This document shows, piece by piece, positions 7,991 through 36,362 of a DNA stretch of 64,000 bases (the stretch's first letter is position 1; every line of letters begins with the position of its first letter). The translations under genes were made by a program, and so were the position numbers. Origin of the DNA: Clostridia bacterium (GTDB lineage Bacteria > Bacillota > Limnochordia > DTU080 > RSA5); assembly GCA_002919235.1 (NCBI GenBank), contig PKEX01000008.1:62001-126000 (forward strand), read 5' to 3'. The notes beneath the pieces were generated by a model that did no database searches, was not told the DNA's origin, and saw nothing but the letters and a program-made list of their open reading frames with translations.

Positions 7991-7994
<4 letters not shown>
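7479..7994 (-). CDS. ilvN: Acetolactate synthase regulatory (small) subunit IlvN
   Basis: Small subunit of acetohydroxyacid synthase. It raises activity of IlvB and confers valine feedback inhibition. An N-terminal ACT domain (residues 3-75; [20 protein letters not shown] then YNIESIAVG) is followed by the ALS_ss C-terminal domain to about residue 155. 171 residues is typical. The ATG overlaps the ilvB stop as ATGA (7991-7994), so translation is coupled and subunits are made in step. Confidence 0.96.
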
Positions 7995-9730
<1,736 letters not shown>

Positions 9731-9815
9731 GCCGATCCCTCCAAACCGCTTTCTCCCGTCCCGCTCGGGACTGGCAGTATTCCGCATGATCCGCTCATCC
9801 GTTTCTAAGGGAACA

Positions 9816-9869
9816 AAAAAACCTCACCGCCCCCACACCACCCACCGTGGATGCCAGGGGCGAGAGGTT
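9816..9869 (-). terminator. T-box-controlled intrinsic terminator before ilvB
   Basis: On the minus strand AACCTC-CGCCCC (9857-9869) pairs with GGGGCG-GAGGTT (9821-9835) and is followed by seven U (9816-9822). It competes with the T-box antiterminator just upstream. Confidence 0.88.
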
Positions 9870-10186
9870 CATCCTGCTCGCGGTACCACCCGACTTCACC
9901 GCTGCCTCGCGGCAGCGGTCTCAGCGACTCAACGCCTCGGCCGCAACCGGAAAGCGCCGTTGAGTCTCGCGGGGTTAACGGGTCACCCGCCATGAGACGG
10001 GCCCCGGCATCGCCTACGCAGCGCCGGCCGCACGGGGACGGCGCCTTCAGCGAGCGGCTCCGAAGCGAGTTCGACGAGGGCGCTCAAGGCACCGGCTCGC
10101 ACCGCCCGCCGGCTCTCTGGGCCCGGCCTCTCGTCTACTGCTCTTCGTCATCGCCTTTGCCGTATCAAAGGGTTTCCTATGAATTG
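9816..10186 (-). promoter_or_regulatory. T-box leader of the ilvB operon, specifier CUC (Leu)
   Basis: The T-box core GGGTGGTACCGCG is at 9879-9892 on the minus strand. Upstream stem I shows the K-turn half GATGACG near 10150, the AG-bulge/apical pattern AGAGAGCCGG...GTGCGAGCCGG, and the distal K-turn strand CTTCGGAGCC. The specifier triplet, just 5' of that strand and followed by G, is CTC at 10067-10069, a leucine codon. The UGGU bulge matches a tRNA with discriminator A, as in tRNA-Leu. Uncharged tRNA-Leu should stabilise the antiterminator and let the ilv-ser-leu operon be read. Confidence 0.92.
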
Positions 10187-10731: not shown

Positions 10732-12027
10732 TCAGAACGTTCGACTTAGCTCACCGATCTCCTGCTCAAGAGGGGGCTTGCCCGCCGGCCGCGCCCCCGC
10801 CTTGCGGCGGGCCATCTCCCGCTTGAGGAACGCGCCCAGCCGGCGGATCCCTTCGACGATCCACTCGTCCGGCGCCTGGCTGTACGCCAGCCGGATGGTG
10901 TTGGGGCCTGATCCATCAGTGAAAAAGGCGCCGCCGCTGACGTAGGCGACCCGCTCTTCGGCCACCGCCCTGGGCAGCATCTCCTTCGCGTCCATCCCCT
11001 CAGGCAGCGTCACCCAGATGAAGAAGCCGCCCTCCGGATACGTCCAGTGGACCTCTTTCGGGAAATGCTCTCCCATGGCCTCGATCATCAAGTCCCGCTT
11101 TCGCCGGTACACATCGATGATCGAGCGCAGGTGGCGCTGGAGAAGCCCTCGCTTTTCGCACTCTACGATGAGCTTTTGGCCGAAGGTGTTGGAGCAGAGG
11201 TCCGTCCCCTGCTTCGCGATGGCCATCTTGCGGATCACGTCCTCGGGGCCGATCACGTATCCCACCCTCAGGCCCGGAAAGGCCACTTTGGAGTAGCTCC
11301 CGAGGTACAACACGCGGCCGTCCCCGTCGAAGCTCTTGACGTGGGGGCGGGGACTGCCTTCGAAACGGATCTCGCCGTAAGGGTTGTCTTCGACGACGGC
11401 GAAGCCGAAGCGGACCGCCAGCTCCACCAGGCGCCGCCGCCTTTCTTCCGACAAGGTGACCCCGGAAGGGTTTTGAAAGTTGGGCACCACGTAGCAGAGC
11501 TTGGGCCCGGAGCCGGGCCGCCCGTTCCCGGCCCGGTTCTCAAGGAGCCGCTCTTCCAGGAAGCTCACCTGCAGCCCGTCGTCGTCCAGGGGAATGGGCC
11601 AAAACGCCGCCTCGTAGTTGCCGAAGGCGGAAATGCCCCCTATGTAGCCGGGCTTTTCGACGATGACCGCGTCGCCGGGGTCTAGGGTCACCTTCGCGAT
11701 GAGGTCCAGCGCCTGCTGGGATCCGTTGGTGAGCAGCACCTCCTCCGGCCGGCACGGCACCCCTTCCCCGGTCATCCGGTGGGCGATCAGTTCCCGCAGT
11801 TCGTAAAGGCCCTCCGTCGGACCGTACTGGAGACTGGTGGCCCCCATCTGCCGAGCCACCCCCTCCGCCACCTCTGCCACCTCGTCGAGGGGGAAGGTTT
11901 CAGGCGACGGGAAGCCCCCGGCGAAGGAGATGATGTCCCCCCGTTCGGCCAGCTTGAAGGCCTCGCGGATGTCGGACGCTTTCATCCTCTGTGTCCTGGC
12001 GGCGAACAGTCCTTCCCAAAGACCCAT
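10732..12027 (-). CDS. PLP-dependent aminotransferase, predicted alanine-forming
   Basis: Fold-type I class I/II aminotransferase of 431 residues, of the 2-aminoadipate/LysN and MocR-catalytic-domain group but without an HTH domain. Visible motifs are FAGGFPSPETFP near the N-terminus, NGSQQALD (PLP phosphate), NFQNPSG, the conserved VVEDNPYGEI, and SYSKVAFPGLRVGY with the Schiff-base lysine. ATG at 12027 has GAGGG eight bases upstream; a GTG at 12036 abuts that SD. Family alone would allow a broad amino donor, but two tandem T-boxes reading GCC (Ala) lie directly upstream, so alanine synthesis from pyruvate is the favoured role. Confidence 0.85.
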   Translation of the reverse strand: MGLWEGLFAARTQRMKASDIREAFKLAERGDIISFAGGFPSPETFPLDEVAEVAEGVARQMGATSLQYGPTEGLYELRELIAHRMTGEGVPCRPEEVLLTNGSQQALDLIAKVTLDPGDAVIVEKPGYIGGISAFGNYEAAFWPIPLDDDGLQVSFLEERLLENRAGNGRPGSGPKLCYVVPNFQNPSGVTLSEERRRRLVELAVRFGFAVVEDNPYGEIRFEGSPRPHVKSFDGDGRVLYLGSYSKVAFPGLRVGYVIGPEDVIRKMAIAKQGTDLCSNTFGQKLIVECEKRGLLQRHLRSIIDVYRRKRDLMIEAMGEHFPKEVHWTYPEGGFFIWVTLPEGMDAKEMLPRAVAEERVAYVSGGAFFTDGSGPNTIRLAYSQAPDEWIVEGIRRLGAFLKREMARRKAGARPAGKPPLEQEIGELSRTF

Positions 12028-12076
12028 GGCCGTCACCCTCGGTTCGCGTAAGTTGCCGGGCTCTTTCGCACCGGAA

Positions 12077-12344
12077 CGAGAAAAGCTCCCGGTCTCTCGC
12101 TCAGAGACGGGAGCCGATCCCGCGGTACCACTCTGATTACCGGGCCTGTGCGACCCGGTCCCTCACAGGGGCGGATACCGGCGCCCCGGCCGTCCGCTCG
12201 TCGCGGTAGGAGCATCAGGGGGCGGCCCCGCGCGACGGCGGGCGCAAGATCCTTTCAGCCGGGGGATCTCTCTCTGTAGCGCCGTCCTTTCGCGCTTCTT
12301 CCCCGTCATCGCTCGCTGCGCTGCTCTTTTCTTGTCCGCCGGAA
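12077..12344 (-). promoter_or_regulatory. Second (proximal) T-box leader of the aminotransferase gene, specifier GCC (Ala)
   Basis: The T-box core GTGGTACCGCG lies at about 12119-12131 on the minus strand. Stem I starts with GAGCGATGACGGGG and closes with CCCCCTGATGCTC. The triplet before the purine and closing C-run is GCC (12224-12226), an alanine codon. An apical AGAGAG loop is visible between them. It begins directly after the terminator of the first T-box with no clear promoter of its own, so both sit in series on one transcript. Confidence 0.85.
12081..12115 (-). terminator. Terminator of the proximal T-box
   Basis: On the minus strand GCTCCCGTCTCT pairs with AGAGACCGGGAGC (one bulge) and is followed by TTTTCTC. 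It ends about 50 bases before the aminotransferase start. Confidence 0.85.
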
Positions 12345-12706
12345 AGCAAAAAGAGCTTTCACCCGTGTAGGGCGAAAGCTCCAGGCTTCGCGGTACCACC
12401 TACGTTTGCCCACCCCTTGCGGGGCGAGCCTCAGTCTCCCGCGGGCACCGCACCGGCTCGACACCAGCGGGGCGACCTGCGCGGCCCTGCGGGATGCGGG
12501 AGTTAACGGCCCCCGGCGACTCGCAAGCCGCCGGCCGGCTGCGGATACTCGGGGACGAAACCCGTCCTCTTTCCCCGCAGCGGCTCGGAGGTGGCTATCC
12601 ACGGACCTCCGGCGCCGCCTTTCCACCCCCGGCGGCTCTCTCTTGCCGGCTCCGGCCCGCTTCTCTCCTCGTCATCGCCTTTGTGCAACCGGAAGGTTTT
12701 AGGTAT
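12345..12706 (-). promoter_or_regulatory. First (distal) T-box leader of the aminotransferase gene, specifier GCC (Ala)
   Basis: The T-box core TAGGTGGTACCGCG is at 12389-12403 on the minus strand. Stem I has GGCGATGACGAGG near 12680 and closing strand CCTCCGAGCC near 12583-12592. The specifier triplet before the flanking A is GCC (12593-12595), alanine. The apical AGAGAGCCGCC...GGCGGC pattern is clear. It lies 3' of carB but points away from it, towards the aminotransferase. Confidence 0.88.
12348..12381 (-). terminator. Terminator of the distal T-box
   Basis: GAGCUUUCGCCC pairs with GGGUGAAAGCUC (12370-12381 with 12353-12364, one G-U pair) around a five-base loop and is followed by five U (12348-12352). 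Confidence 0.9.
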
Positions 12707-20539: not shown

Positions 20540-20578
20540 AATGAAAAAAGTATAACCCCAAATGAATAAAAATGCAAC
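20540..20578. promoter_or_regulatory. Tandem ARG boxes (ArgR operator) at the argC promoter
   Basis: AATGAATAAAAATGCAAC (20561-20578) is nearly identical to the Bacillus ARG box consensus as I know it. A weaker box, AATGAAAAAAGTATAACC (20540-20557), matches 11 of 18 positions. The two start 21 bp apart, the two-helical-turn spacing used by an ArgR hexamer. They cover the -35, spacer and -10, so arginine-loaded ArgR would block RNA polymerase. Confidence 0.82.
20549..20577 (-). promoter_or_regulatory. Promoter of argCJBD-carB
   Basis: -35 TTGCAT (20572-20577), 17-base spacer, -10 TATACT (20549-20554) on the minus strand, within an AT-rich island in otherwise GC-rich DNA. Confidence 0.82.
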
Positions 20579-34599: not shown

Positions 34600-35229
34600 G
34601 TGATCCAGATCGAGACGCTGTCCATCGGCCCGATCGAAACCAACTGCTACATCGTGCGGGACGCAAACCGCCGTGCGTTCGTCGTCGACCCCGGATGCGA
34701 ATACCAGCCCATCCTGGACGCGGTGCGGGGCCTCGAGGTGACCGACATCCTCCTCACCCATGCGCACTGGGACCACATCGGCGGTGTCGCGGCGCTGAAG
34801 GAGGCCACCGGGGCCCGGGTGTGGGCGCACGAGGCGGAAGCCCAGTGGCTCCTGGATCCCCGGCTCAATCTCTCGTCGGAGGTACCGTTCCTCCCGCAGC
34901 CGGTGGTCGCGCCTGCGGCGGACGTCCTGCTCAAGGGCGGCGAGCGCTTTGAACTGCTGGGACAGGCCATCGAAGCCCGGTTCACCCCGGGCCATTCGCC
35001 GGGGCACCTGTCCTACGTGATGGGGGACGTGGTCTTCGGCGGCGATGCGCTGTTTGCGAGTTCCATCGGGCGGACCGATCTTCCCGGAGGCGACTACCCG
35101 ACGCTGATCCGGAGCATCCGTGAGCAGCTCCTCACCCTCCCGCCGGAGACCGCCGTCCTGCCCGGCCACGGTCCGTCCACCACCGTGGAGCGGGAGCGGC
35201 GGACCAACCCGTTCTTGGCGCTGGGCTAG
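34600..35229 (+). CDS. MBL-fold hydrolase, glyoxalase II-like
   Basis: 209 residues. The metal motif THAHWDH (HxHxDH) lies near residue 55, followed by TPGHSPGHLS, GDALFASSIGRTD and LPGHGP, giving a full set of ligands for two metals. This group includes hydroxyacylglutathione hydrolase-like and persulfide-dioxygenase-like enzymes; substrate is not determined. The GTG start follows GGAGG. A TG-extended -10 TACAAT at about 34541 may be its promoter. Confidence 0.85.
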   Translation: MIQIETLSIGPIETNCYIVRDANRRAFVVDPGCEYQPILDAVRGLEVTDILLTHAHWDHIGGVAALKEATGARVWAHEAEAQWLLDPRLNLSSEVPFLPQPVVAPAADVLLKGGERFELLGQAIEARFTPGHSPGHLSYVMGDVVFGGDALFASSIGRTDLPGGDYPTLIRSIREQLLTLPPETAVLPGHGPSTTVERERRTNPFLALG

Positions 35230-35256
35230 AGGCGAGGCGCGGGCGCCTTCCGCCCG

Positions 35257-35285
35257 TTGACTTCATAGCCCGGCAGGACTATAAT
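35257..35285 (+). promoter_or_regulatory. Promoter of the aroF attenuator leader
   Basis: -35 TTGACT (35257-35262), 17-base spacer, perfect -10 TATAAT (35280-35285). Transcription should start near 35292, about 33 bases before the leader-peptide ATG. Confidence 0.9.
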
Positions 35286-35324
35286 AGGGACAACATCCAG
35301 TTTCCGGGCGAGGAGGTGCACACG

Positions 35325-35405
35325 ATGCGGGCCGCCGGTATCCGCCGGTTTGATCGCTCGTTCTTTTTTGGGTACTGGTACGGCTTTACGTATCGTGTGC
35401 CCTAG
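35325..35405 (+). CDS. Aromatic leader peptide controlling aroF
   Basis: A 26-codon open frame with ATG at 35325-35327 and TAG at 35403-35405, preceded by GAGGAGG at ideal spacing (eight bases). Nine of 26 residues are aromatic, and residues 13-23 read FFFGYWYGFTY: eight of eleven are Phe, Tyr or Trp. The frame ends inside the 5' arm of an antiterminator hairpin. This is the classic design of a ribosome-sensed amino-acid attenuator leader. The peptide itself needs no function. Confidence 0.9.
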   Translation: MRAAGIRRFDRSFFFGYWYGFTYRVP

Positions 35406-35468
35406 AACGAGCCGCCTCTCACGAGACGCTTGGGCCTGGGGCACACGAAAGACGCCCCGGCCCTTTTT
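35395..35468 (+). terminator. Attenuator: mutually exclusive antiterminator and terminator
   Basis: Antiterminator: GTGTGCCCT (35395-35403) pairs with GGGGCACAC (35438-35446). Terminator: GGGCCTGGGGC (35432-35442) pairs with GCCCCGGCCC (35454-35463, one bulge), followed by five U (35464-35468). The arms overlap at 35438-35442, so only one can form. A ribosome stalled on the aromatic codons (35361-35393) leaves the antiterminator free. A ribosome reaching the stop masks its 5' arm and lets the terminator form. Confidence 0.88.
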
Positions 35469-35495
35469 GTATGCCGCCGACAAGCAGCTCTGCAC

Positions 35496-35529
35496 GGGCC
35501 GTGGGCCATTGGCACCCACGGCCCTTTTT
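35496..35529 (+). terminator. Second intrinsic terminator before aroF
   Basis: A perfect ten-base stem GGGCCGTGGG (35496-35505) with CCCACGGCCC (35515-35524), nine-base loop, then five U (35525-35529). It lies 28 bases past the first terminator's U-run and 36 bases before the aroF start. Confidence 0.88.
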
Positions 35530-35564
35530 GCTGGAGAGGCGCCCGGCCGAGCGGAGGGAGACCC

Positions 35565-36362
35565 GTGATCGAGAACGGCCAATTCACCGTCATCGCAGGG
35601 CCTTGCGCCGTCGAGACCTACGAGACGACGCTGGCCTGCGCCCGGAGCGTGTTGAACGCCGGCGCCGCGCTGTTCCGGGCGGGAGCCTACAAGCCTCGCA
35701 CCAATCCCAAGTCCTTTCAAGGCCTGGGGGACAAGGGCCTCGAGATCCTGGAAGCCGTACGGCGGGAGACGGGGATCCGCATCGTCACCGAGGTGATGGA
35801 ACCGGGGCTGGTGGAGAAGGTGGCGGCCTGCGCGGACGTCCTCCAGATCGGGACCCGCAACATGAGCAACTTCCCGCTTCTGAAAGAAGTGGGCAAGGCG
35901 CGCCGCCCGGTCATCCTCAAGAGGGGGATGGCCGCCACCCTAGACGAGCTCCTGCACGCCGCGGAATACATACTCCAGGAAGGGAACGAGCACGTGATCC
36001 TCTGCGAGAGGGGGATCCGGACGTTTGAAACCTACACCCGCAACACCCTGGACCTCAGCGCGGTGCCTGCCCTCAAGGAGCTCACCCATCTGCCCGTGAT
36101 CGTCGACCCCAGCCACGGCACGGGGCGCCGGTCCCTGGTGCCGCCCATGGCCCTGGCCAGCCTGGCCGCGGGAGCCGACGGCATCATGGTGGAGGTGCAC
36201 CCCGACCCGGACCGCTCCTGGACTTCCGACGGCAAGCAGTCCCTGGACCTCGCCGGCTTTGAGCGCCTCATGGAAGACGTGAAGAGGCTCCTCCCCCACT
36301 TCGGCAAGGAGCTGGCGCCGGCCTGGCCCAAGCGCACGCCCCACGCCGCGCGGTTGGCGTAG
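35565..36362 (+). CDS. aroF: DAHP synthase (type I-beta), core form without N-terminal regulatory domain
   Basis: Condenses phosphoenolpyruvate with erythrose 4-phosphate, the first step of the shikimate pathway. About 265 residues form only the TIM barrel: VIAGPCAVE at the start, [30 protein letters not shown] and [10 protein letters not shown], with the metal and PEP ligands (Cys, Lys, His, Glu, Asp) in place. Many I-beta enzymes carry an extra N-terminal ferredoxin-like or chorismate mutase domain for feedback control; here the GTG at 35565 (after GGAGGG) leaves no room for one. Expression is controlled by the upstream aromatic attenuator instead. Confidence 0.93.

Follow-up and report, generated by a model that had tools for sequence, protein, structure and literature searches.

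A putative six-segment, two-terminator aromatic attenuator upstream of a DAHP synthase gene in a Clostridia bacterium

The aromatic leader and its first terminator

How does a Clostridia bacterium couple transcription of a DAHP synthase gene to its supply of aromatic amino acids? We investigated this question at a locus on the forward strand of a 64,000-nucleotide stretch of genomic DNA (hereafter the window; coordinates are positions within it, and features lie on the + strand unless stated otherwise). Judged from the sequence, the best explanation overall is probably a six-segment, two-terminator aromatic attenuator upstream of the gene. The gene (35565–36362; GTG start, Shine-Dalgarno sequence at 35553–35558) encodes a 265-residue type I-beta DAHP synthase (AroF/AroA-beta) that matched PF00793 and scored 359.9 bits against TIGR01361 (B. 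subtilis type), above the curated cut-off of 267.75, which confirms the identity given in a preliminary description of this DNA. Its reading frame is open further upstream, through both terminators described below, to a TTG codon at 35430 (35430–36362, + strand); this is probably a coincidence, because the GTG at 35565 has a good Shine-Dalgarno sequence and the start of a relative's gene is equivalent. The enzyme has PF00793 without the N-terminal ferredoxin-like regulatory domain PF18152, and its paralogue L002 has both. Allosteric control through the ferredoxin-like domain is established for type I-beta enzymes elsewhere; an enzyme lacking that domain, as here, would depend more on transcriptional control.

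A scan of positions 34800–36000 found a single promoter, a sigma-70-type TTGACT-N17-TATAAT at 35257–35285, with both terminators lying between it and the gene. It matches the consensus at 11 of 12 positions, near-consensus rather than perfect as first described, and such promoters occurred at a mean of 0.1 in shuffled sequences. The Shine-Dalgarno sequence GAGGAGG (35310–35316) precedes a leader peptide ORF of 26 codons (35325–35405; MRAAGIRRFDRSFFFGYWYGFTYRVP, then the stop codon); both were located where the preliminary description had reported them, and the ORF is conserved in the relative L003. Residues 13–23, FFFGYWYGFTY (35361–35393), comprise eight aromatic residues with Phe, Tyr and Trp all present, as had been counted, and this is the maximum among the 108,805 stop-free 11-codon stretches in the six frames of the window. 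At least six aromatic residues per 11 codons occurred at only one other place, a minus-strand frame near 20575. By footprint reasoning, the productive stall sites are probably Phe13–Tyr19 (35361–35381); a ribosome stalled at Tyr23, and in part at Phe21, would be too near segment 2, which it would mask, favouring termination.

In the minimum-free-energy fold of the leader without a ribosome, segments 1 and 2 form a protector hairpin (1:2; 35370–35382 with 35389–35402), which had been overlooked previously and is enclosed by a 9-bp outer clamp (35356–35364/35404–35412), the whole spanning 35356–35412. Segment 2 also serves as the 5′ arm of an antiterminator (35394–35405; CGUGUGCCCUAG, including the stop codon UAG), pairing over 12 bp with segment 3 (35436–35447), which overlaps the 5′ arm of the first terminator. 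The antiterminator had been placed at 35395–35403/35438–35446; its competition with the terminator and its span across the stop codon were borne out, but the arms were about 1 nt off and the helix is really 12 bp long. A 9-bp complement of segment 3 arose by chance in 0.085% of shuffled leaders. The first terminator (T1, 3:4; 35432–35468) has a stem at 35432–35463 followed by U5 at 35464–35468 and a hairpin energy of −20.1 kcal/mol, and its stem is of ten base pairs, as described, with one bulged base. Thus the locus has what is expected of a leader-peptide attenuator: a promoter-proximal ORF with a Shine-Dalgarno sequence and start codon, codons for the end products of the pathway, and a terminator opposed by an antiterminator that excludes it and has its 5′ arm where a ribosome could cover it. 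We consider ribosome-mediated attenuation by the aromatic codons very probable.

The second terminator and its putative link to the first

Beyond T1 lies a second terminator (T2, 5:6; 35496–35529) with a stem at 35496–35505/35515–35524, U5 at 35525–35529 and a hairpin energy of −21.8 kcal/mol; 35 nt separate its end from the GTG at 35565. A simple promoter/terminator scanner missed both T1 and T2 (loop limit 8 nt, no bulge), and a separate finder was written. When the 254-nt leader was dinucleotide-shuffled 5000 times, this finder returned one such terminator in 27 of the shuffles and two in none. Only three terminators of this strength were found on the whole + strand of the window, two of them in this leader. 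Because both lie between the gene and the sole promoter found, T2 must be relieved as well as T1 for expression from that promoter.

The two terminators are complementary to each other. Segment 4, the 3′ arm of T1 (35454–35463), has an alternative partner in segment 5, the 5′ arm of T2 (35496–35506), and the 4:5 duplex (10 bp, with a bulged U at 35502) has an energy of −23.6 kcal/mol. Among unrelated terminators paired at random, 1.2% of pairs reached this strength, and segment 4 of the window was bound equally well by 0.5% of unrelated 5′ arms. In stepwise folding with the ribosome stalled at Trp18, 2:3 formed first, followed by 2:3 together with 4:5 once segment 5 was out and segment 6 was not; with the ribosome at the stop codon, T1 and then T2 formed. 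The RNA of the stalled state gave a z-score of −3.4. In the window 4:5 taken alone is 1.9 kcal/mol better than T2, and in most other leaders it is weaker than T2. In the long transcript of the window at equilibrium, T2 wins over 4:5 after completion of segment 6; relief of T2 must therefore be kinetic, with 4:5 forming first.

The elements, their mutual exclusion and their recurrence in relatives are visible in the sequence itself. From them we infer translation of the leader ORF, stalling of the ribosome and the order of co-transcriptional folding, and on this basis propose that the attenuator would match DAHP synthase expression to the availability of charged tRNAs for Phe, Tyr and Trp. With all three tRNAs charged, the ribosome would reach the stop codon and cover segment 2, so that 3:4 (T1) would form and transcription would stop; in an untranslated leader, 1 would pair with 2, again leaving 3 for 4. 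A polymerase slipping past T1 would then meet T2, segment 4 being occupied. If any one of the tRNAs were scarce, the ribosome would stall at Phe13–Tyr19 and mask segment 1, whereupon 2:3 would form and segment 4 would be freed. The freed segment 4 would capture the emerging segment 5 and delay T2, and one stall would thus disarm both stops.

A simpler possibility is that T1 alone is regulated, as in trp and phe leaders, with no 4:5 linkage; T2 would then be a leaky or back-up stop in its own right, perhaps a copy of T1 that has decayed. This possibility would be in keeping with the finding that 4:5 is not the final structure of the long window transcript at equilibrium, and with the many DAHP synthase leaders, for example those of the SWGYYYSAGYF type, that have one terminator only. 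However, an unlinked T2 with the stability and U5 tract given above would hold the gene off despite relief of T1, and the two terminators remain complementary, T1 through its 3′ arm and T2 through its 5′ arm, in lineages of differing sequence (see below). We therefore regard independent action of T2 as unlikely, and take the two-terminator relay to be the likely mode of action.

Related leaders and the proposed relay across lineages

The leader elements recur in relatives. We collected DAHP synthase loci from 73 genomes of the window genome's class and from a separate scan of named genomes, and scored a leader where an upstream short ORF with at least five aromatic residues in 11 codons was followed by a terminator. 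The same-family relative (L003/L032, genome G001) has the leader MAWGFFAFGYWYGFPYRVP, its own promoter (TTGACG..TATAAT, arranged alike), T1 and T2; over the codon and pairing core 38 of 40 bases are identical, and FGYWYGF.YRVP is kept. Two genomes of the same order have SWRFYFSFFF and SWRFYYYYFYF leaders, each with its own antiterminator and two terminators. The evidence for leader conservation comes from L003/L032, L004 and L005. Conservation of the aromatic codons and of both pairings in orthologous leaders, the check proposed for the preliminary attenuator reading, thus holds in same-family and same-order relatives; that reading is supported, but it had overlooked the second terminator and its linkage to T1.

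Similar leaders were found in more distant groups. Three loci from the Acidobacteria searches have QFYFWFYFYF-type leaders and two terminators. In Desulfobacterota, FGRFFFxFRSVHP leaders were present at about 25 of 30 loci, most with two terminators; segment 2 there consists of the S-V-H-P codons, with GUCCAUCCGG pairing with CCGGGUGGAC, and the members scanned belong to no Rfam family. These leaders (L180–L208) constitute a large, highly conserved Phe-rich family upstream of DAHP synthase genes or of DAHPS-PDT-ACT fusions, the fusion being present in many Desulfobacterota. Another family of leaders, with 13 loci in Clostridia and in the window's class, has a conserved SWGYYYSAGYF-like motif and lies upstream of DAHP synthase. 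Its terminator in the window's class is GGAGACUUUU..AGUCUCC, the downstream DAHP synthase frame is open far enough for the N-terminal domain, and its conserved non-aromatic SAG residues may reflect a pairing or a peptide constraint. A strict link between tandem leaders and loss of the ferredoxin-like domain was ruled out: L105 and the fused Desulfobacterota enzyme L187 keep the domain, and by the criteria used many DAHP synthase genes lacking it are not preceded by an aromatic leader.

We analysed the relay across lineages in about 1 Mb of fetched DNA, where 30 of the 36 adjacent same-strand terminator pairs were aromatic leaders, drawn from the window's order, Acidobacteria and Desulfobacterota. 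For these leaders the duplex of the T1 3′ arm with the T2 5′ arm ranged from −14 to −30 kcal/mol, whereas unrelated terminators paired at random averaged −11.5 kcal/mol (S.D. 4.7). In all 30 leaders the 4:5 pairing was the best fold before segment 6 exists (mean pairing probability 0.73). When all lineages were put into one MAFFT alignment, the 4:5 arms came out one base off, and so pair counts were limited to 20 aligned Desulfobacterota leaders and the other lineages were compared by duplex energy. In those 20 rows the paired cells amounted to 99% for 2:3, 96% for 3:4, 93% for 4:5 and 97% for 5:6, compared with at most 73% when the helices were slid by one column. Within Desulfobacterota, own 4:5 pairs could not be told from swapped ones by energy, because CCCGGGG is common to all of these leaders; this core is nearly palindromic and makes 4:5 partly automatic there. 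Among six lineages with differing arm sequences, only 0.56% of permuted assignments matched the true total 4:5 energy, a test that covers few lineages and loci picked by the same finder that defines them. T2 might have originated as a copy of T1, and complementarity kept as the sequences diverged argues for function.

The leader codons appear to follow the genes downstream. Phe made up 86% of the leader aromatic residues where a prephenate dehydratase gene lies downstream on the same strand (33 leaders) and 49% where none was found (23 leaders; Mann–Whitney p = 2e-7), a difference confounded with phylogeny. All three aromatic residues were present in ten of the latter 23 leaders, so that a single leader reading all three, previously called unusual, is not unique to the window. 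Two loci from the Acidobacteria search (L230 and L236) have a Trp-rich leader, NWFWWPWHF, before DAHP synthase and then trpE, which suggests retuning to the Trp branch. One Chloroflexi leader with all three aromatic residues precedes DAHPS-trpS, and DAHPS-aroA follows the mixed leaders of the three Acidobacteria-search loci above (L069, L216 and L229), pheA lying further downstream in one of them. On this pattern leader codons would track the downstream product (Phe-rich with DAHP synthase and prephenate dehydratase, Trp-rich with DAHP synthase and trpE, mixed with stand-alone DAHP synthase), again confounded with phylogeny. In the window the gene after DAHP synthase lies on the opposite strand, which fits a general aromatic signal.

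These leaders also bear on whether the aromatic peptide itself arrests the ribosome, as a sensor of an aromatic metabolite or free amino acid instead of tRNA starvation. Strong conservation of the FGYWYGF.YRVP core between both family members could be taken that way, as could the SAG motif of the other leader type. But leaders of other lineages keep the density of aromatic residues with no common peptide sequence, their codons follow pathway output, and pairing of segment 2 accounts for the RVP and SVHP residues; we consider nascent-chain arrest very improbable.

Genome context, known systems and significance

Leader-peptide attenuation is textbook in Proteobacteria and Actinobacteria and was long deemed rare in Bacillota, where TRAP and T-boxes are dominant. 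The contrast between the two, drawn in the preliminary description, fails for the window genome. It encodes TRAP (PF02081, 136 bits; mtrB), and in its trpE leader (L260, G000:C2) a strong terminator comes after six GAG repeats in a row, so that this leader is probably under TRAP control. T-box matches at E below 0.001 number 16 in this genome, one of them above the curated cut-off. Within the window, a T-box match below the Rfam cut-off lies at 9853–10160 (− strand) upstream of an acetolactate synthase-like gene (7991–9787), and two tandem matches, also below it, at 12100–12684 (− strand) upstream of an aminotransferase-like gene (10732–12036). Leader-peptide control here adds to, and does not replace, the usual Bacillota tools.

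The TRAP and T-box matches are also what speaks for control of DAHP synthase by a protein or ligand (TRAP, T-box or riboswitch) with the aromatic ORF incidental, a very improbable reading, given that the longest (G/U)AG chain in this leader is two, against six in that of trpE, and that aromatic codons recur in orthologous leaders of differing sequence. TRAP binding at the DAHP synthase leader was rejected on this count, as about 11 such triplets spaced 2–3 nt would be expected. A T-box was likewise rejected, with no RF00230 match there by cmscan or by the genome search that found T-boxes elsewhere. At gathering and lax thresholds Rfam gave nothing credible at this leader, the Trp_leader and Phe_leader covariance models did not match it, and the homologous leaders are also without a family.

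Enterobacterial trp and pheA leaders each read one amino acid and have one terminator. The window leader resembles them in its 1:2 protector, 2:3 antiterminator, 3:4 terminator and a stop codon in the segment 2 region, but differs in reading three aromatic amino acids and in having two terminators. The nearest functional precedent appears to be the aroR-aroF attenuator of Corynebacterium glutamicum, reportedly the work of Neshat et al. in 2014, in which an aromatic-codon leader likewise lies directly upstream of a DAHP synthase gene. That organism belongs to a different phylum, and the portions of the sources available to us mention no second terminator or relay, whereas the window leader has Trp and two terminators. 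According to the same portions, its leader carries Phe-Tyr-Phe and no Trp, and starvation for Phe raises read-through while Tyr has no effect (PMC11802643, PMC4046766).

In the enterobacterial his attenuator, the position of the ribosome sets whether A:B, C:D and E:F or B:C and D:E form (PMC4046918). The window fold shares this six-segment relay logic, alternating between 1:2, 3:4 and 5:6 on the one hand and 2:3 and 4:5 on the other. However, only E:F is described as a terminator in his leaders, whereas 3:4 (the C:D equivalent) and 5:6 of the window both end in U tracts, so that one stall must relieve two terminators. As other amino acids and genes are involved, the window leader is his-like in its working and not a his leader. 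The uORFC-13-1 motif of Acholeplasma aroF, in which a predicted uORF containing one or more Phe codons is followed by an intrinsic terminator (PMC8632094), precedes the same gene, but Phe is the sole amino acid named for it, and it has one terminator and is restricted to Acholeplasma and environmental sequences. The rimP-leader of Gammaproteobacteria also has two tandem intrinsic terminators, with a possible anti-terminator, but it precedes a different gene and no amino acid sensing is described for it; leader peptides have been proposed in Firmicutes for hisS/hisZ (PMC2965389).

In the freely readable literature, a set to which the 2010 comparative study by Lopatovskaya et al. (cited in PMC4833913) does not belong, we found no account of aromatic genes with relay leaders of two terminators. 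The leader-peptide switch itself is of a known type; the linked pair of stops, recurring in three unrelated bacterial groups, appears to be undescribed. On balance we favour an undescribed attenuator class that occurs in three phyla or more: a single stall would disarm two successive terminators, and the leader codons would be retuned to the downstream output, be it Phe, Trp or all three aromatic amino acids. A lineage equipped with TRAP and T-boxes very probably still uses a leader peptide at the first step of the aromatic pathway, reading all three end products. The cross-phylum set of leaders makes the relay directly testable, and, if the relay is true, two coupled terminators answering to one ribosome would tighten repression without losing the response.
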